64,000 bases of DNA. Source: Lentzea albida. GTDB lineage: Bacteria; Actinomycetota; Actinomycetes; Mycobacteriales; Pseudonocardiaceae. This document shows positions 55,982 to 64,000 of the stretch, one piece after another. The position numbers were made by a program, and so were the translations under genes. A model generated the notes under the pieces. That model did not search any database. It was not told the origin of the DNA and worked only from the letters and a program-made list of their open reading frames with translations. Within the stretch, counting starts at the first letter, position 1, and every line of letters starts with the position of its first letter. The DNA lies in the NCBI RefSeq assembly GCF_900111005.1, contig NZ_FOFV01000014.1:62001-126000 (forward strand), in the 5' to 3' direction.

Positions 55982-56830
55982 TCAGCGGAACAGGATGCGC
56001 GTGATCTCCGTGTCCGTCTCACGACCCTCGTCGTAGGCGCCCTCGCCCCGGAGGTCGTTCATGATCGCGAGTGTGTACCGCTCGTCCTTCCCGACGAACC
56101 CGACGGAGTTCATGACCCAGCCGCCGTCCTCCTCCGACCAGCCGTTCTTCGCGCCGGAGTCGGGGCCCCAGACACCCCACTGCTGCACCGGGCCGACGTC
56201 ACGCATCTGCCCGACGATGTAGTCGCGGTCGGCGGCGGGCACGGCGTCGAGGACGTGGTTCATCAGCCGGTCGAGGTCGTTCGCCGTGCACTTCTCGAAG
56301 CCCCAGTAGGGGAACGTGGACGAATACCCCTTCTGCGGCACCAGGTCGGTCATCCCGTACTTGGCGAACGCCGCGTTGAACGTCGTGCCGTTGTACTTCT
56401 TCCACAGCGAGTCCGCCGCGTCGTCATCGGACGTGTGCAGCATCGCGCTCATCAGCGTGCGGTCGCCGGCGCTCAGCGTGATCTTGCCGGCGCGGTGGCG
56501 TTCGAGCAGGTTGACGACCATGGCGAGCTTGATCGTCGAGGCCGTCCACGTCAGGTCGCCCGCGTGCTCGTTGCGCCAGACCACGCCGGTCTTGCGGTCG
56601 CGCAGCACGAAACCGACGGATCCGGGCCTGGTCTCGGCGTAGTCCTCGGCGGCTCTGATGCGCTTCTGGAAGTCGCACTCGAACCCGCTGTCGGGCAGCG
56701 GGCAGACCTCGGGCGTCGCGACGAGGGGCGCCGCCGCCGGCGTGTGCGCGGCGGCGGGTGGTTCCGCCGTCACTGCGTGACCGCAGGCCGTGAGGGCGAG
56801 CGCGCACGCGACGAGCATCGGACGGAGCAT
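55982..56830 (-). CDS. Beta-lactamase-like serine hydrolase lipoprotein
   Basis: Predicted 282 residues. Signal peptide with lipobox ALTAC. The mature protein has the class A/PBP pattern: active-site TASTIKLA (SxxK), TSDDDAADS in place of SDN, and AKNGW in place of KTG. The Omega-loop glutamate motif is not evident. It more likely belongs to the beta-lactamase2 serine hydrolases that modify cell wall or have lost beta-lactam activity than to true beta-lactamases. ATG 56830 gives a standard lipoprotein start; GTG 56836 is close. Confidence 0.85.
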   Translation of the reverse strand: MLRPMLVACALALTACGHAVTAEPPAAAHTPAAAPLVATPEVCPLPDSGFECDFQKRIRAAEDYAETRPGSVGFVLRDRKTGVVWRNEHAGDLTWTASTIKLAMVVNLLERHRAGKITLSAGDRTLMSAMLHTSDDDAADSLWKKYNGTTFNAAFAKYGMTDLVPQKGYSSTFPYWGFEKCTANDLDRLMNHVLDAVPAADRDYIVGQMRDVGPVQQWGVWGPDSGAKNGWSEEDGGWVMNSVGFVGKDERYTLAIMNDLRGEGAYDEGRETDTEITRILFR

Positions 56831-56902
56831 GCGCGGCACGCTAACGGGTCCGATCGGACGTAGTCGACCGCCATCCGGCCGCCGCGGCCGTGCTGGCACC
56901 GA

Positions 56903-56967
56903 GTCAAAGATGTTTGACACGGTGTCTGGTTCGCTTTACCTTGGTGATGTCAGGTTTCTTTGACATC
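56903..56967 (+). promoter_or_regulatory. Promoter with two dyads for membrane/XRE pair
   Basis: TTGACA (56914-56919), 17-base spacer and TACCTT (56937-56942) form a good sigma-A-type promoter. GTCAAA-GATG-TTTGAC (56903-56918) covers the -35; GATGTCA / TGACATC (56946-56952, 56961-56967) covers the start region. TTTGACA occurs twice. Confidence 0.75.
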
Positions 56968-57617: not shown

Positions 57618-58561
57618 TGAAGGCTGTCGTGCAACGAAGATACGGATCGGCGGTGTTCGGTGAGCTCGCTGTGCCTGTGCCTCGGGAGGGCGAGGTTCTG
57701 CTGGAGGTGCGGGCGGCGGGCGTCGACATGGGCGTCTGGCACCTGCTCGAGGGCAAGCCGTACGTGGTGCGGATCCTCGGGTTCGGGTTCCGCGGACCGA
57801 AGTCGCCGGTGCCGGGACGGGACGTCTCCGGCGTCGTGAAGGAGGTCGGGCCGGGCGTCACCGCGTTCGCGGTGGGCGACGAGGTGTTCGGCACGTGCGA
57901 GGGGTCGTTCGCCGAGTACGCCGTCGCGCCGGTCTCGCGGCTGGCGCGCAAGCCGGAGGGGATCTCGTTCACCGAGGCGGCCGCGGTGCCGATCTCGGGA
58001 GGAACGGCGCTGGAAGGACTGCGCGGAGTCCGGCCCGGACAGCGGGTCCTGGTGCTCGGTGCGGGCGGCGGCGTCGGCTCGTACGGCGTCCAGATCGCGA
58101 AAGCCCTGGGCGCGCACGTGACCGGTGTGTGCAGCACGACCAAGGTCGAACTGGTGCGGTCACTGGGCGCCGACGAGGTCTTCGACCACACGGTCGCGGA
58201 CTTCACCGGCACGTACGACCTGATCCTGTCGTGCGGCGGGGCCAGGCCGTTGTCCAGGCTGCGCCGGGCGACGGTCGCGGGCGGCCGGATCGTCCTGGTC
58301 GGTTCCGAGGACGGGGGAGCGGTCACGGGCGGGTTCGAGAAGTCGCTGGCCTCGGTCCTGCAGAACCCCTTCATCAAGCAGAAGTTCGTCCCGCTGGTGG
58401 CGCGCGAGCGCGCCGAGATCTTCGACGAACTGCGCGTGCTGGTCGAGGCCGGCCGCGTGAAACCCGCCGTGGGCAAGGTCTTCCCGCTGTCCGAGGCGCT
58501 GGACGCGATCGACCACGTCTACTCGCGACGGTCGGCCGGCAAGACGGTCGTCGCGATCTGA
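57617..58561 (+). CDS. Quinone-oxidoreductase-like dehydrogenase
   Basis: Predicted 314 residues. Medium-chain dehydrogenase without zinc ligands, resembling QOR/zeta-crystallin: PGRDVSGVVKEVGPGVTAF, VFGTCEGSFAEYAVAP, and the NADPH motif VLGAGGGVGSYGVQIAKALG near residue 145. Co-transcription with the XRE/membrane pair is suggested by the one-base overlap. Substrate unknown. Its 3' end overlaps the convergent amidohydrolase gene by 43 bases. Confidence 0.9.
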   Translation: MKAVVQRRYGSAVFGELAVPVPREGEVLLEVRAAGVDMGVWHLLEGKPYVVRILGFGFRGPKSPVPGRDVSGVVKEVGPGVTAFAVGDEVFGTCEGSFAEYAVAPVSRLARKPEGISFTEAAAVPISGGTALEGLRGVRPGQRVLVLGAGGGVGSYGVQIAKALGAHVTGVCSTTKVELVRSLGADEVFDHTVADFTGTYDLILSCGGARPLSRLRRATVAGGRIVLVGSEDGGAVTGGFEKSLASVLQNPFIKQKFVPLVARERAEIFDELRVLVEAGRVKPAVGKVFPLSEALDAIDHVYSRRSAGKTVVAI

Positions 58562-59700
58562 CCACCGATCACCACGGTCGTCACGTGGTGCAACGCCGTG
58601 ATGTCCCGCATGGGATCTCCTTGCACGGCGATCACATCCGCGTCCCATCCCGGCTTCAGCGCGCCCTTGGTGACCCCGCAGGCCCTGGCCGCCCCACTGG
58701 TGGCGCTCGCCAGCACCACCGAGTTCGGCATCCCGGCCTCGACCATGTCGCCGAGGGCGTGGGCGGTGATCCCGTGGGCCTTGCCCGCGCCGATCCCGCC
58801 GTCGGTGCCGGAGACCGCGCGCACGCCGTGGTCGTACATGCGACCGACTGCGTTGATCTTGGCCGCCAGGCTCATCCCCATGCGCTCGAACGCCTCCCTG
58901 ATGTGCGGGGGCGGCGTCTCCGTGGAGCCGAGCGTGTGGCAGACGGCGATGTCGGCCTCGGCCAGCGCGTCCATCAGGTCGACGGGGACCACCATGGCCC
59001 CGCCGGACAGGCACGTGCAGTGCTCGATGCCGTCGACGCCCGCGGCCACGGACCGCTGCACGGCCGCGAGGCTGTGGGCGTGGGCGGTCACCGGGAGGCC
59101 GAGCGAGTGGGCCTCCTCGACCACCACGCGCAGTTCGTGCTCGGTGAACTGGCAGTCGTCGACGATCGTGCCGGGGGTCGCGAACCCGCCGCTGGCCATG
59201 ACCTTGACGACGTCGACCCGTCGCTCGGCCCGTTCCCGCACGGCCGAGCGGAGCGCCTCGTCGCCGGACGCCTCACCGCCCATCGACCAGCAGTGACCGC
59301 GCGGGCTCGTGATGGGCGGGCCGGAGGCGAGGACGCGCTGCCGGTGCCGGTCTCGCTGGTCCACCACGGCCCACGCGCGGTCGCCCAGGTCGCGGACGGT
59401 CGTGACACCGGCCCTCAGCTGCCGGTCGAGGCCGTCCGCGATCACCGCGTCGAGGTGTTCGGAGGTGAACTCGGGCAGGCGGTCCAGCGCACCGTTCTCG
59501 CTGTCCGCGCACAGGTGCACGTGGGTGTCGATCAGTCCGGGCAGGACGGTCGCGGTGCCGAGGTCGGCGACCTCGGCACCCGCCACGTCGGGGTGGCCGC
59601 GCTCGACGGCCCTGATCTTCCCGTCCTCGGTGACGACCGTGACGGGACCCGCGATCGACCGCTCACCGTCGAACGCGCGCGCAGCCCGCAGCGCCAGCAT
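58519..59700 (-). CDS. Amidohydrolase-family enzyme
   Basis: Predicted 393 residues. Metal-dependent amidohydrolase with the HxH of LPGLIDTHVHLC, the bridging-lysine region VDVVKVMASGG, histidines in VTAHAHS and GIEHCTCLSGG and the aspartate in AVSGTDGG. This is the imidazolonepropionase/Xaa-Pro dipeptidase-like subgroup common in actinobacteria. It is encoded 38 bases after the cyclohydrolase gene, which precedes it on the same strand, so co-transcription is possible. Substrate unknown. Confidence 0.9.
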   Translation of the reverse strand: MLALRAARAFDGERSIAGPVTVVTEDGKIRAVERGHPDVAGAEVADLGTATVLPGLIDTHVHLCADSENGALDRLPEFTSEHLDAVIADGLDRQLRAGVTTVRDLGDRAWAVVDQRDRHRQRVLASGPPITSPRGHCWSMGGEASGDEALRSAVRERAERRVDVVKVMASGGFATPGTIVDDCQFTEHELRVVVEEAHSLGLPVTAHAHSLAAVQRSVAAGVDGIEHCTCLSGGAMVVPVDLMDALAEADIAVCHTLGSTETPPPHIREAFERMGMSLAAKINAVGRMYDHGVRAVSGTDGGIGAGKAHGITAHALGDMVEAGMPNSVVLASATSGAARACGVTKGALKPGWDADVIAVQGDPMRDITALHHVTTVVIGGQIATTVLPADRRE

Positions 59701-59738: not shown

Positions 59739-60374
59739 TCAGCGGGCGTGCGGCAGCGTCGTGAACCCCTCCACCTGGGGCAGGTCGTGCCCGAGCCGGT
59801 CGCGCTTCGCGGTCAGGTACGCGATGTTGTGCTGGTTGGGCTTCATCAGCGACGGCACCCGCGCGGTGACCGGGATCCCGTGGGACTCGAGCGCCGCGAT
59901 CTTGTCCGGGTTGTTCGACATCAGCCGCACGGACTGCACGCGCAGGTGCTTGAGCACGCGCGCCGCCGGGGTGTAGTCGCGCACGTCGACGGGGAGCCCG
60001 AGCGACGTGGCGGAGTCCAACGTGTCCAGTCCCTCGTCCTGCAGCACGTGCGTGCGGATCTTGTCCACCAGCCCGATGCCGCGGCCCTCGTGGCCGCGCA
60101 GGTAGACGAGGATGCCGCTGCCCTCGCGCACGATCGTGTTCAGCGCGGCGTCGAGCTGTTCCCCGCACTCGCAGCGCATGGCCCCGAAGATGTCGCCGGT
60201 CATGCACTCGGAGTGGATGCGCACCAGCACGTTCTCGCGCAACTTCGTCTTGCCGTGCACGAGAGCCATGTGTTCGTGGCCGTCCGCGCGGAACGCGACT
60301 GCGCGGAAGGTGCCACGCCGTGTCACCAGATCGGACTCCGCCACGTCTTCGTCGTTGAAGGCCTGCTCGAACAT
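59739..60374 (-). CDS. GTP cyclohydrolase II homologue, likely FAPy-forming
   Basis: Predicted 211 residues. GTP cyclohydrolase II fold with the zinc cysteines in SECMTGDIFGAMRCECGEQL (three Cys), the GTP loop YLRGHEGRGIGL and VRDYTPAARVL with the conserved Arg. Against E. coli RibA recalled from memory, Tyr105 (KIRAYALQD) is His here (KIRTHVLQD). In the S. coelicolor homologue SCO6655 the corresponding residue is Met and the product is the formylated pyrimidine FAPy rather than the riboflavin precursor. A dedicated, non-riboflavin enzyme is therefore likely. ATG 60374 has AAGGGGA upstream. Divergent from the PTPS homologue, with 92 bases between. Confidence 0.88.
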   Translation of the reverse strand: MFEQAFNDEDVAESDLVTRRGTFRAVAFRADGHEHMALVHGKTKLRENVLVRIHSECMTGDIFGAMRCECGEQLDAALNTIVREGSGILVYLRGHEGRGIGLVDKIRTHVLQDEGLDTLDSATSLGLPVDVRDYTPAARVLKHLRVQSVRLMSNNPDKIAALESHGIPVTARVPSLMKPNQHNIAYLTAKRDRLGHDLPQVEGFTTLPHAR

Positions 60375-60456
60375 CTCCGGTCCCCTTGTCGCCAGGCGCC
60401 TTCCGAACGTGCAGCTACGCTCGGATGGAGGTCGCACCGTAACCCGACCGCACAGC

Positions 60457-60461
60457 GGAGG
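60457..60461 (+). promoter_or_regulatory. Ribosome-binding site deciding a CTG start
   Basis: GGAGG ends 5 bases before CTG 60467. No ATG, GTG or TTG in frame has such a site, and the protein then begins LFSITVRDH as in homologues. Confidence 0.7.
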
Positions 60462-60466
60462 TCATC

Positions 60467-60877
60467 CTGTTCAGCATCACCGTCCGCGATCACGTGATGA
60501 TCGCCCACAGTTTCCGCGGCGAGGTCTTCGGTCCAGCGCAACGTCTGCATGGAGCAACGTTCCTGGTGGACGCAACGTTCAAACGGACTGAGCTCGATTC
60601 GGACAACATCGTCGTCGACATCGGACTCGCGACCCAGGAGCTCAGCGGCGTCCTGGCGGAGTTCAACTACCGCAACCTGGACGAAGAACCGCAGTTCGCG
60701 GGCATCAACACGTCCACGGAGTGGCTCGCGAAGCACATCGCCGACCAGCTCGCGGACAAGATCTCCGCGGGTGCCCTGGGTGAGGGCGCTCACGGGATCG
60801 ATGCGATCGCCGTCACACTCCACGAGTCGCATGTGGCGTGGGCGAGCTACGAACGTGCACTTCGTCCTTCCGGCTGA
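60467..60877 (+). CDS. Degenerate 6-pyruvoyl-tetrahydropterin synthase (QueD) homologue
   Basis: Predicted 136 residues in the T-fold PTPS/QueD family. Against E. coli QueD from memory: His16 is kept (IAHSF), His31 is kept (RLHGATF), but His33 is Ala, catalytic Cys27 is absent (GPAQRLHG for KCGRLHGH) and the catalytic His71 is lost (FNYRNLD). The substrate-binding Glu110 is kept (LHESH). This pattern matches S. coelicolor SCO6650, whose structure I recall as lacking zinc and the catalytic triad while keeping a pterin-type pocket. The start codon is CTG 60467, guided by GGAGG; GTG 60494 would lose nine conserved residues. The glycosyltransferase gene overlaps its end by 23 bases. Confidence 0.88.
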
Positions 60878-61826
60878 CGTCGCGGACCCCGGCAGTCCCA
60901 GCGGCGGCAACGTCTACGACCTGCGTGTGAGCGCGGGCCTGGAGCGTGTGCTCGTCGCTGGTGACTGGCCGCGTCCGAGCGACCCCACCGCGTTGGAGCA
61001 AGCGCTTGCGGCCATCCCGCGGGGAGACGTCGTGCTCCTCGACGGTCTCGTGAGCTGCGGACTGCCTGAAGTCGTCGTTCCCCACACGCGCAGGCTGGAG
61101 ATCGTCGTGCTCGTCCACCTGCCGCTGGCGGACGAGACCGGCCTCGACCCGGCGACCGCCGCGTTCCTGAACGAGAAGGAGGGCCAGGTCCTGCGGGCCG
61201 CGAGCGCGGTCGTCGCGACCAGCCCGACGGCCGCGCGGGACATCAGGACGCGGCACGGGCTCGACCACGTCCACGTGGTCGTCCCGGGCACCGATCCGGC
61301 GCCGCTCGCGCACGGCACGGACGGCGTGCACCACCTGCTCTGCGTCGCGTCCATCACACCCCGCAAAGGCCACGACCTGCTGGTCAGGGCGTTGCGGAGG
61401 ATCGACCGCGACTGGCGGCTGACGTGCGTGGGCCCGCACCGGCCGTTCCTGCGCGAACTGCCGCACGACGACCGCGTCAGCTTCCCCGGCCCCCTCGCCG
61501 GCGAGGCCCTGACCAGCGCGTATGTGGGTGCGGACCTCTTCGTCCTGGCCTCCCGCGCCGAGACCTACGGCATGGTCGTCACCGAGGCCCTCGCGCACGG
61601 TCTGCCGGTCATCGCGAGCGCCGTTCCGGACGCCCTCGGCGACGGCGGACTGCTCTTTCCCACCGAGGACGAAAATGCATTGGAAGCTGCACTAACGCGC
61701 TGGTTTGAAGATCAACAATTCCGGTCGGAGTTGCGTCGCAAAGCGCTCGCGCGGCGGGCCGTTCTGTCCACTTGGGACGAATCCACAGAGGACCTGCGGA
61801 GGGTGCTGGCTACGCTCCGGCCATGA
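60855..61826 (+). CDS. GT4-type glycosyltransferase
   Basis: Predicted 323 residues, GT-B fold of family GT4. The C-terminal donor-binding part has [20 protein letters not shown], the loop [14 protein letters not shown] and the EX7E motif in [20 protein letters not shown]. The N-terminal half is shorter than usual. It starts inside the PTPS-like gene (GTG 60855) and ends in an ATGA overlap with the methyltransferase gene, so they are one operon. It could glycosylate a pterin- or pyrimidine-like product of the pathway. Confidence 0.9.
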
Positions 61827-62602
61827 CCTTCTCCCCGGAATGGCTGGCACTGAGGGAAAACGCCGACGCACGGGCGCGCTCGACCGAGCTCGTGGACACC
61901 CTCCGCGAAACTCTGGTGAACCGAACCCCCCTGACCATCCGTGACCTCGGGTGTGGAACGGGATCGATGGGACGATGGCTCGCCGGCAGGCTCGGCGGCG
62001 TGCAGCACTGGGTGCTGCACGACCGCGACCCCCGGCTGCTCGGGCTGGCGGAGGCCGGCATGAGCGCCTTCGAGAACGTCACCGTCGAGACGCGTGAGGG
62101 CGACCTCACGTCCCTCGAAGCCTCCGACCTCGCGGGCGCCGACCTCGTCACGTGCTCCGCGTTGCTCGACCTGCTCACCGCCGAAGAGATGAACGAACTG
62201 GCCATGGCCTGCGTAGAAGCTCATGTGCCCGCACTGTTCACGCTCTCGGTGGCAGGCCGGATCGAACTGGATCCGGCCGAGCCGCTCGACGCCGCCTTCC
62301 AGGACGCGTTCAACGCCCACCAGCGTCGCGTCGTGGACGGGCGCCGTCTCCTCGGGCCCGACGCCCCCGCCGCCGCCGAAGAGGCGTTCGCGGCGGCAGG
62401 CGCCTCGGTCCGGACGGCTCAGAGCCCCTGGCGCATGAACGCCGACGCCCTGCAGCGGGAATGGCTGCGGGGCTGGGTCGGTGCCGCGGTGGAGCAGGAA
62501 CCCGCACTCGCCGCCGAGGCGCCCGAGTACCTGCGTCGCAGGTCAACGGCCTCCGCGGTGGTCCACCACGTCGACCTGCTGGCACTACCGGGAGCTGTGT
62601 GA
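61823..62602 (+). CDS. SAM-dependent methyltransferase
   Basis: Predicted 259 residues, class I fold. Motif I is IRDLGCGTGSMGRWLAG, motif II-like HWVLHDRDPRLLGLAEAGM, and LTSLEASDLAGADLVTCSAL the region binding the adenine. It belongs to the operon after the glycosyltransferase (ATGA overlap) and ends 1 base before the membrane protein gene. TACGCT lies 6 bases before the ATG and may be an internal promoter. The acceptor is unknown; the pathway's GTP-derived intermediate is a candidate. Confidence 0.9.
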   Translation: MTFSPEWLALRENADARARSTELVDTLRETLVNRTPLTIRDLGCGTGSMGRWLAGRLGGVQHWVLHDRDPRLLGLAEAGMSAFENVTVETREGDLTSLEASDLAGADLVTCSALLDLLTAEEMNELAMACVEAHVPALFTLSVAGRIELDPAEPLDAAFQDAFNAHQRRVVDGRRLLGPDAPAAAEEAFAAAGASVRTAQSPWRMNADALQREWLRGWVGAAVEQEPALAAEAPEYLRRRSTASAVVHHVDLLALPGAV

Positions 62603-62603
62603 G

Positions 62604-63566
62604 ATGAAGAAGTTCTGGCCGTGGCTCCGACTGCTGCTGGCGGTGGGCATCCTGGTGGCCCTGGGCGTGCGCCTGGGCACCGGTGCCTTCCTCGACGGAC
62701 TGCGCGCGATCGACGCGTTCTCCGTGGCCGCCGCGCTGGCGATCGGGCTCGTGACGACGGTGCTCAGCGCGGGTCGCTGGGTCCTCGTCGCGCGCCGCCT
62801 CGGCCTGCCGCTGACGTTGAAGACCGCCGTCGGCGACTACTACCGCGCCCAGCTCGTCAACGCCGTGCTGCCCGCCGGCGTGCTCGGTGACGTGCACCGC
62901 GCGGTCAACCACGGCCGGGAGTCGGGCGACGTCGGACGGGGCGTGCGCGCCGTGTTCTTCGAGCGCACCGCCGGCCAGGTCGTGCTCATCGGGATCGGGC
63001 TCGCGGTGCTGCTCACGCACCCCGCGCCCGGCCTCGACCTCGCACCCGACGGCACCACCGTCGCGCTCGTCCTCGCCGGTCTGGTCGCGCTCGTGGTCGT
63101 CGGCTGGCACATCCGGCCGGTGCGCAGGGCACTGGTCGACACCCTCGCCGACGGCATCAGGCTGCTGTCGTTCAGGACCTGGCCCGCGGTTCTCGGGCTG
63201 TCGGCCGCCGCGGTCGCGGGCTACGTCGCGCTGTTCCTGGTGGCCGCCCGCGCCGCCGGGTCGGACGCGACGACCACCCAGCTCGCGCCGGTCGTCGTGC
63301 TGGCGCTGCTGATCATGGCGATCCCGGTCAACATCGGCGGGTTCGGCCCGCGCGAGGCGTTCCTCGCGGTGGCGTTCGGCGCCGCCGGTCTGGGCGCGGC
63401 GCAGGGCTTCACCACGGGCATCGTCTACGGCGTGCTGGCGCTCATCGCCGCCCTGCCCGGCGCGGTCGTGCTGTTCCTGTCACGCCGTCCGAGGACCGAA
63501 CAGGTCGAGGTAGTGGCGGAACGAGTCGGCCAGACCCGCGAGCAGGAGCTCGCCCTTGCGCGCTGA
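62604..63566 (+). CDS. LPG-synthase-type (UPF0104) membrane protein
   Basis: Predicted 320 residues with about eight membrane segments and the PF03706 signatures: AVGDYYRAQLVNAVLPAGVL, GDVHRAV and the late VNIGGFGPREAFLA. The family includes the flippase half of lysyl-phosphatidylglycerol synthase and dolichol-linked proteins. In this operon it might export or flip the glycosylated product or a lipid-linked form of it. Its last 87 bases overlap the convergent creatininase-family gene. Confidence 0.9.
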   Translation: MKKFWPWLRLLLAVGILVALGVRLGTGAFLDGLRAIDAFSVAAALAIGLVTTVLSAGRWVLVARRLGLPLTLKTAVGDYYRAQLVNAVLPAGVLGDVHRAVNHGRESGDVGRGVRAVFFERTAGQVVLIGIGLAVLLTHPAPGLDLAPDGTTVALVLAGLVALVVVGWHIRPVRRALVDTLADGIRLLSFRTWPAVLGLSAAAVAGYVALFLVAARAAGSDATTTQLAPVVVLALLIMAIPVNIGGFGPREAFLAVAFGAAGLGAAQGFTTGIVYGVLALIAALPGAVVLFLSRRPRTEQVEVVAERVGQTREQELALAR

Positions 63567-64000
63567 CGCGAGGGACGGGCGCCCGACGACACCGGACCCG
63601 GTGTACGGCGCCAGACCCAGGGTGAGCATGTGCCGCCGGTCCTCCGCCAGGTGGTCAGAGGTTTCGTAGCCGGGACGGATGAGATCGGGGTGCGCGTGCA
63701 GCAGGATCGAGGTCTCCAGCTCGCCGGCGTGCATGTCGCTGTAGGCCGAGGTCTCGATGCCCGCCTTCTCCCGCGCGAACGCCCAGTCGTCCCGTCCGGG
63801 GAACAGCGCCAGCCCTTCACCCTCCTGCACGACGTTCGACAGCACGTAGTTGCCGCCGTGGCCGTTGACCAGCACGACGTGCTCGACACCGTTGCGCCGC
63901 AAGGACTCCGCGATGTCCTCGACCACTGAGATCAACGTGCGCGCGGAGATGCTGACGGTCCCCGGCCAGTCGGCGTGCTCCTGCGAGCACGAGAACTGGA
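63480..64000 (-). CDS. Creatininase-family hydrolase, 5' end outside window
   Basis: About 174 residues are visible; the frame stays open to the right edge, so the N-terminus is missing. Metal-binding motifs are present: SCSQEHADWPGTVSI, VNGHGGN and DMHAGELETS. The creatininase family includes archaeal ArfB, which removes the formyl group from FAPy, as well as creatinine and mycofactocin (MftE) hydrolases. Next to an atypical cyclohydrolase II predicted to make FAPy, a deformylase role is attractive. It overlaps the UPF0104 gene by 87 bases and is convergent to it. Confidence 0.85.
   Translation of the reverse strand, partial: QFSCSQEHADWPGTVSISARTLISVVEDIAESLRRNGVEHVVLVNGHGGNYVLSNVVQEGEGLALFPGRDDWAFAREKAGIETSAYSDMHAGELETSILLHAHPDLIRPGYETSDHLAEDRRHMLTLGLAPYTGSGVVGRPSLASARKGELLLAGLADSFRHYLDLFGPRTA

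Follow-up and report, generated by a model that had tools for sequence, protein, structure and literature searches.

Near the end of the 64,000-nucleotide stretch of Lentzea albida DNA that we analyzed (the window; contig NZ_FOFV01000014.1, positions 62,001 to 126,000) lie the genes at one end of a ten-gene cluster, which extends beyond position 64000 and whose remainder falls within 5 kb. It is a real conserved gene set, which recurs in Actinomycetota and Alphaproteobacteria and, as partial sets, elsewhere. Its first chemistry, the opening of GTP and the predicted removal of a formyl group, is supported by sequence, and its reading as a route to an envelope component is a testable hypothesis. 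In window numbering, the ten genes, with a DoxX-like gene lying among them, are:

59739..60374, minus strand: GCH2, GTP cyclohydrolase II (GCH II; PF00925, 202.5 bits)
60467..60877, plus strand: PTPS, SCO6650-type PTPS homologue (PF01242, 81.4 bits; PDB 3d7j, i.e., SCO6650, E 3e-66)
60855..61826, plus strand: GT, GT4-type glycosyltransferase (PF13692, 92.5 bits)
61823..62602, plus strand: MT, S-adenosylmethionine (SAM) methyltransferase (PF13649, 37.8 bits)
62604..63566, plus strand: FLIP, flippase-like membrane protein, LPG_synthase_TM (PF03706, 106.4 bits)
63480..64193, minus strand: CREA, creatininase family, cut by the window end at 64000 (PF02633, 210.3 bits)
64162-65145, minus strand, past the window end: MDR, dehydrogenase (ADH_zinc_N, 28.5 bits, below cut-off)
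65187-65921, plus strand, past the window end: CDPA, CDP-alcohol phosphotransferase (CDP-OH_P_transf, PF01066, 54.1 bits)
65863-66315, plus strand, past the window end: DoxX-like gene
66296-66958, minus strand, past the window end: RIBDC, RibD_C reductase (RibD_C, 125.8 bits)
67037-68617, plus strand, past the window end: SULF, LtaS-like membrane transferase (Sulfatase, 24.7 bits, just below cut-off)

A preliminary description of this DNA had placed six families here and treated the four central genes as one operon. Gene calls, Pfam profiles and a check of the codons agree on all six. PTPS, GT, MT and FLIP form a tight plus-strand operon, with a 23 bp overlap between PTPS and GT, an ATGA junction between GT and MT, and a 1 bp gap between MT and FLIP; GCH2 is oriented away from it, and CREA, on the minus strand, has 32 bp in common with MDR, its next gene. 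As a list of the cluster, however, the six were incomplete: MDR, CDPA, RIBDC and SULF had been missed because the window stops at 64000.

PTPS orthologues occurred in 43 of the 296 genomes of the window's class (taken to be Actinomycetes), representing 18 of 106 genera. With 40 further loci from 39 of these genomes and the Lentzea locus, we obtained a class set of 41, in which profiles recognized MDR, PTPS and GT 41 times each, FLIP 37, CDPA 35, GCH2 34, MT 33, CREA 24, RIBDC 17 and SULF 14 times. The score thresholds for these and the following locus counts were our own. The neighbors in the class loci were called with a light gene caller that overlooks genes. Many loci are clipped by contig or stretch ends, so that family absences are upper bounds. 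In the last three PTPS genomes (loci L163-L165), GCH2, CREA, FLIP, MT, GT, PTPS, MDR and CDPA were all present.

A second set consisted of the best 80 of at least 584 relatives in named genomes, and its taxonomic mix is biased because the ranking used a divergent query. It comprised 36 Actinomycetes, 35 Alphaproteobacteria and 9 others (Saprospiria 3, Gammaproteobacteria 2, and one each of Planctomycetota, Myxococcota, unplaced Pseudomonadota and a Thermoleophilia metagenome-assembled genome). Here PTPS was recognized in 80 loci, MDR in 78, GT in 67, MT in 44, RIBDC in 41, CDPA in 31, FLIP in 25, GCH2 in 22, SULF in 21 and CREA in none. Seven core genes (MDR, PTPS, GT, MT, GCH2, CDPA and FLIP) stood together in 39 of all 121 loci (GT threshold, 60 bits), and nine (the core plus RIBDC and SULF) in 14, from the window's class, named Actinomycetota and Alphaproteobacteria. 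These counts became 37 and 13 of 117 when one member was removed from each of four redundant pairs (L036/L105, on the same contig; L113/L119 and L069/L070, partly near-identical; and L080/L081). L081, assigned to Solirubrobacterales, has 2875 60-mers in common with L080, from Microbacterium; its contig is probably misbinned, and Thermoleophilia are therefore not counted among the cluster taxa.

None of 17 control loci around unlinked CREA, RIBDC or GCH2 paralogues contained PTPS, MDR, GT, MT, FLIP, CDPA or SULF, with only one side visible in L157-L159, where the paralogue sits at a contig end. By comparison, MDR, PTPS and GT stood together in all 40 further class loci, in many cases accompanied by most of the remaining families, and did so again in other taxa, implying that the clustering is not due to chance. 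Absence of co-occurrence in other genomes, which the preliminary description had named as fatal to its proposal, was thus not what we found. GT also shares a single reading frame with GCH2 or MT at L133 (Planctomycetota), L038 and L146. Other recurrent neighbors in actinobacteria (families f7, f9, f10, f11, f13, f14, f16, f17 and others) appeared, by eye, to be lineage-specific.

The Lentzea GCH2 passed the RibA profile TIGR00505 (212.4 bits; cut-off, 205.85), and the alignment places a His in the column of the canonical Tyr105 of E. coli RibA, in keeping with the altered specificity residue noticed earlier. This Tyr is needed for the complete GCH II reaction, which leads to a diaminopyrimidine (APy). 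We take SCO6655, with Met as the switch residue, to be a GCH II of Streptomyces coelicolor that forms the corresponding formamidopyrimidine (FAPy). In CREA-bearing loci, the switch residue of the cluster GCH2 was H, L, M or Q in 24 of 24 cases, and three more loci, all with Met, brought the non-Tyr count to 27 of 27; conversely, when CREA was absent from the locus, the residue was Tyr (32/32). Removal of close pairs reduced the 24 and 32 loci to 23 and 31. Moreover, no CREA relative was found (E 1e-55) anywhere in 10 class genomes with a Tyr-type cluster GCH2. Such a pairing is expected if a non-Tyr GCH II stops at FAPy and CREA takes off the formyl group. Since the presence of CREA matches the loss of the switch Tyr, CREA is most likely a FAPy deformylase, and the proposed sequence from GTP through FAPy to deformylation gains backing from this pairing, of one or two origins.

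At the genome level, GCH2 proteins with at least 65% identity to the Lentzea cluster enzyme were confined to PTPS genomes (8/8 besides the Lentzea genome), and CREA-like genes (E 1e-55) were found in 27 of 43 PTPS genomes versus 6 of 253 others; in these six, no GCH2 lay within the fetched stretch. We also considered whether CREA relatives outside the cluster (8 loci) accompany a non-Tyr GCH II, and found no GCH II in those loci; the eight fall outside the cluster CREA group with 85% support, subject to long-branch warnings. CREA-linked GCH2 sequences split into two clades (99 and 100% support), inside which the switch residue varies, with no reversion to Tyr and no CREA loss observed. Independent origins of the Tyr loss were not borne out, given that the GCH2 tree needs a single change.

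In the Lentzea cluster, RIBDC lacks a deaminase domain. Among the NCBIfam profiles it scores best with the archaeal-type reductase TIGR01508 (ArfC/RIB7), at 121.7 bits against a cut-off of 186.45, and 6p8c and 2azn are among its PDB matches. At L037, L038, L076, L082, L086, L088 and L089 (seven loci), a single frame encodes both GCH2 and RIBDC, which points to a ribityl pyrimidine phosphate, and the presence of RIBDC in the cluster of Lentzea and many relatives means that the side chain may be ribityl. No PF00383 deaminase match was found within the cluster in any of the ten genomes searched; a deaminase was seen at L150. For clusters with RIBDC, that of Lentzea included, a ribityl reduction step is supported by these features.

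Since GCH2 and RIBDC belong to riboflavin-pathway families, the genes might simply provide or recycle precursors of riboflavin or F420, the membrane genes being bystanders. We consider this very improbable. The Lentzea genome has two further GCH II enzymes, both of the Tyr type, and for this reason a riboflavin-only reading was set low. The preliminary description would have been refuted by a cluster cyclohydrolase that was the organism's only riboflavin enzyme, and these two others speak against that. The missing deaminase also speaks against such a shunt, which has no place for PTPS, MDR or GT, and none of the neighbors viewed was recognized as belonging to the lumazine synthase, riboflavin synthase or F420 families, albeit with no search by name. 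The third Lentzea GCH II (G000:C15:171749-172237; L003, L166) is Tyr-type, groups with reductase-linked cluster enzymes of other genomes, and has no other cluster families nearby.

The PTPS homologue had been described as non-catalytic, and it does lack the catalytic CxxxHGH: this orthologue of SCO6650 does not contain the PTPS-II/QueD motif (CxxxxxHGH or CxxxHGH). It belongs to the same fold family (PF01242) as the PTPS/QueD subfamilies (COG0720), but has FGPAQ-xx-HG-x-T where they have CxxxHGH, in 16 of 16 aligned sequences (of 41). One Glu near the C-terminus is likewise invariant in these 16, and is presumably the pterin anchor. The start codon is CTG in Lentzea; at this position, the other 40 orthologues have TTG, GTG or ATG.

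MDR retains a GxGxxG stretch, and its model is confident (pLDDT 95.2). In an alignment of 67 sequences, no cysteine column rose above 54/67 and none was seen, by eye, at the usual zinc positions. The nearest folds included xylitol, sorbitol, idonate, butanediol, threonine, cinnamyl-alcohol and liver alcohol dehydrogenases; because these are MDR enzymes of many kinds, the link to polyols is weak. An inositol-monophosphatase-family gene recurs near the cluster (L090, L100, L101, L109, L125, L126, L134 and L153), in Rhodobacterales-type loci and one gammaproteobacterium; its product is perhaps the phosphatase of the pathway.

MDR is also distantly similar to BchC (39.7 bits against TIGR01202, under the cut-off of 291.25), which would suit a different role for the product, a pyrimidine or pterin in this reading too, namely that of a membrane redox cofactor or pigment: a redox-active lipid rather than a modification of the surface. 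A YceI-family gene in 4 of the 53 loci examined and a cytochrome b561-family gene in 11 of them, all Alphaproteobacteria, favor the same idea. Nevertheless, neither family is general among these 53 loci (the neighbors in the class loci lay outside this library scan), and a redox lipid would have no need for an LtaS-like transferase, making this explanation distinctly unlikely. The cytochrome genes lie near the cluster at L104, L106, L107, L113, L119, L123, L125, L134, L142, L143 and L147.

The remaining genes look like a lipid module. CDP-alcohol phosphotransferases carry the motif D-xx-DG-xx-AR-x8-G-xxx-D-xxx-D, which is present in CDPA and invariant in 32 of 32 aligned sequences (53 collected). 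SULF has the LtaS-type architecture, with a transmembrane anchor and an alkaline-phosphatase-like domain of the LtaS fold. CDPA and the LtaS-like enzyme are encoded as a fusion, in one reading frame, at 8 loci, all of which also have a flippase gene. This suggests that CDPA links the product to lipid, that FLIP flips it and that SULF transfers the head group on the outside of the cell. A GT2-family frame (PF13632), OpgH-like by eye, stands beside or near the cluster at L100, L120, L134, L140, L141 and L147, and may bear on the envelope acceptor.

In line with the preliminary description, the product might instead be a methylated glycoside of a pterin or pyrimidine that is soluble and leaves the cell. 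GCH II would form FAPy, CREA would deformylate it, PTPS would be the scaffold, and GT and MT would follow; FLIP or others would be the exporter, with CDPA and SULF acting elsewhere. The constancy of the MDR-PTPS-GT triad (41/41 class loci), the Arthrobacter-type loci that contain little more, and the absence of SULF from most loci and of RIBDC from most CREA loci all agree with this view. On the other hand, CDPA occurs in 35 and FLIP in 37 of the 41 class loci, CDPA and an LtaS-like enzyme share a frame in 8 loci, and retention of the set across phyla would be unusual for a specialized metabolite. With MDR, CDPA and an LtaS-like transferase in the cluster, a soluble glycosylated pterin probably gives an incomplete account, and we judge this explanation unlikely, if deserving of some weight.

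We favor, tentatively and at somewhat less than an even chance for the scheme as a whole, a pathway from GTP to a decorated, lipid-linked, pyrimidine- or pterin-like product, perhaps at the envelope. GCH II would open GTP. In clusters without the switch Tyr, as in Lentzea, it would halt at FAPy and the neighboring creatininase would remove the formyl group; in clusters with the Tyr, GCH II would perform both ring opening and deformylation. RIBDC, where it is in the cluster (as in Lentzea), would reduce the ribosyl to a ribityl chain and, like its counterpart in the archaeal riboflavin/F420 route, would do so without deamination, so that 2,5-diamino-6-ribitylamino-pyrimidinone 5'-phosphate is formed. 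MDR and the PTPS-fold protein would most likely act next, by oxidation of the sugar-derived chain and pterin ring closure with the 5-amino group, which would yield a dihydropterin. A rearrangement on the PTPS scaffold, as in the preliminary description, is conjectural. MT and GT would decorate the product, CDPA would join its alcohol or phosphate to a lipid, the LPG-synthase-like FLIP would flip the lipid-linked product, and SULF, where present, would transfer or release the head group outside. The enzyme set, the pairing of switch residue and CREA, the shared frames and the predicted folds are read directly from sequence; from these we infer the steps after APy and the action of the lipid module on the pathway product.

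Several points weigh against this scheme. The pairing of residue and CREA amounts to one change on the GCH2 tree, with 65% support, and thus to one or two events. CREA scores closer to the mycofactocin creatininase MftE (TIGR03964, 142.4 bits; cut-off, 172; three cluster orthologues, 133.9-145.8) than to ArfB (NF033501, 37.5 bits; cut-off, 180), and is under both cut-offs; as a candidate MftE, it was rejected on its score. SULF was recognized in only 14 of the 41 class loci and 21 of the 80 others. In the second set, MT is missing from 28 of the 36 loci of Actinomycetes; these come largely from Arthrobacter and relatives, and most contain little beyond MDR-PTPS-GT. CDPA and SULF, moreover, could act on another alcohol.

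The distribution of the reductase is a further difficulty. RIBDC lies inside the cluster in just 5 of 27 CREA loci and is absent from the other 22; in family f18, taken for Streptomyces, 14 of 18 CREA clusters lack it. Among the 43 PTPS genomes, RIBDC is a cluster gene in 17, 24 carry only an unlinked relative (E 1e-35) and 2 have neither; the latter (G002 and G258, Arthrobacter-type) both have other RibD_C proteins, in a check that also took in the non-PTPS genome G040. A PF00383 deaminase domain stands directly beside the unlinked RIBDC in all four genomes checked, and a Tyr-type GCH2 lies near 3 of 6 copies in PTPS genomes (L167-L169; none near L170, L171 and L173). Because of these neighbors, the unlinked RIBDC probably belongs to another, deaminating route, and not to the reduction step of the cluster. 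The co-occurrence of RIBDC and PTPS by genome (35/43 vs 35/253) was accordingly discounted as support.

The four unlinked reductases with an adjacent deaminase domain are at G016:C1:4234073-4235065, G050:C1:5058844-5059833, G202:C1:4564003-4565051 and G211:C1:4414137-4415191. In G050 (length 383) and G016 (394), deaminase and reductase are in the same frame, with a Tyr-type GCH II near both. From these pairs, it looks as though actinobacteria have a second ribitylpyrimidine module, one that includes deamination.

Among known systems, the early steps most resemble the archaeal ArfA-ArfB-ArfC route, which also runs from GTP to FAPy, deformylation and ribityl reduction before deamination. ArfB is itself a creatininase-family enzyme. 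The FAPy deformylase and the reductase-before-deaminase order of the archaeal route are described in PMC7017516, and FAPy formation by GTP cyclohydrolase III (GCH III) in PMC7288161. Unlike that route, the cluster is predicted to obtain FAPy from a modified GCH II rather than GCH III, its CREA and RIBDC are under the ArfB and ArfC cut-offs, and the set continues to PTPS, MDR, GT and CDPA. Compared with LtaS, GacH and EptA, SULF shows 8-16% identity in structural alignments and differs in its partners, a CDP-alcohol phosphotransferase and genes for a GTP-derived heterocycle, to which it is joined by fusion or linkage.

A source giving PTPS subfamily motifs calls the function of PTPS-V unclear (PMC5041015). 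SCO6655 and SCO6650, whose structure (3d7j) matches the cluster PTPS, are related parts that have been studied singly; SCO6655 is named in a metabolic model, and SCO6652 in a transcriptome paper. In the openly licensed literature searched, we found neither a description of the cluster nor one of a SCO6650/SCO6655 pathway or of a deformylase, reductase, CDP-alcohol or LtaS-like partner.

Upstream of the cluster, outside the conserved set, an amidohydrolase-like frame (58519-59700, minus strand; named by eye) adjoins GCH2. Farther upstream is a Beta-lactamase2-family protein (PF13354, 32.6 bits; 55982-56920, minus strand).

In its broadest form, our proposal is that several bacterial phyla convert GTP, independently of GTP cyclohydrolase I, into a pterin or ribitylpyrimidine that is glycosylated, methylated and linked to lipid. 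The route would use GCH II, with or without the deformylase, followed by reduction to ribityl, oxidation by MDR and ring closure on the PTPS fold that lacks the catalytic motif; the product would then be flipped and attached to the envelope through an LtaS-type transferase. We hold this generalization to be doubtful at present. The predicted bacterial FAPy deformylase is directly assayable, and a handful of purified enzymes would suffice to test each of the early steps. SCO6650 and SCO6655, each studied alone in S. coelicolor, would gain a pathway, and the cross-phylum gene set would point to an uncharacterized, possibly envelope-bound, GTP-derived compound. If the proposal is true, a lipid-linked, GTP-derived pterin at the envelope would be a previously unknown class of envelope component.

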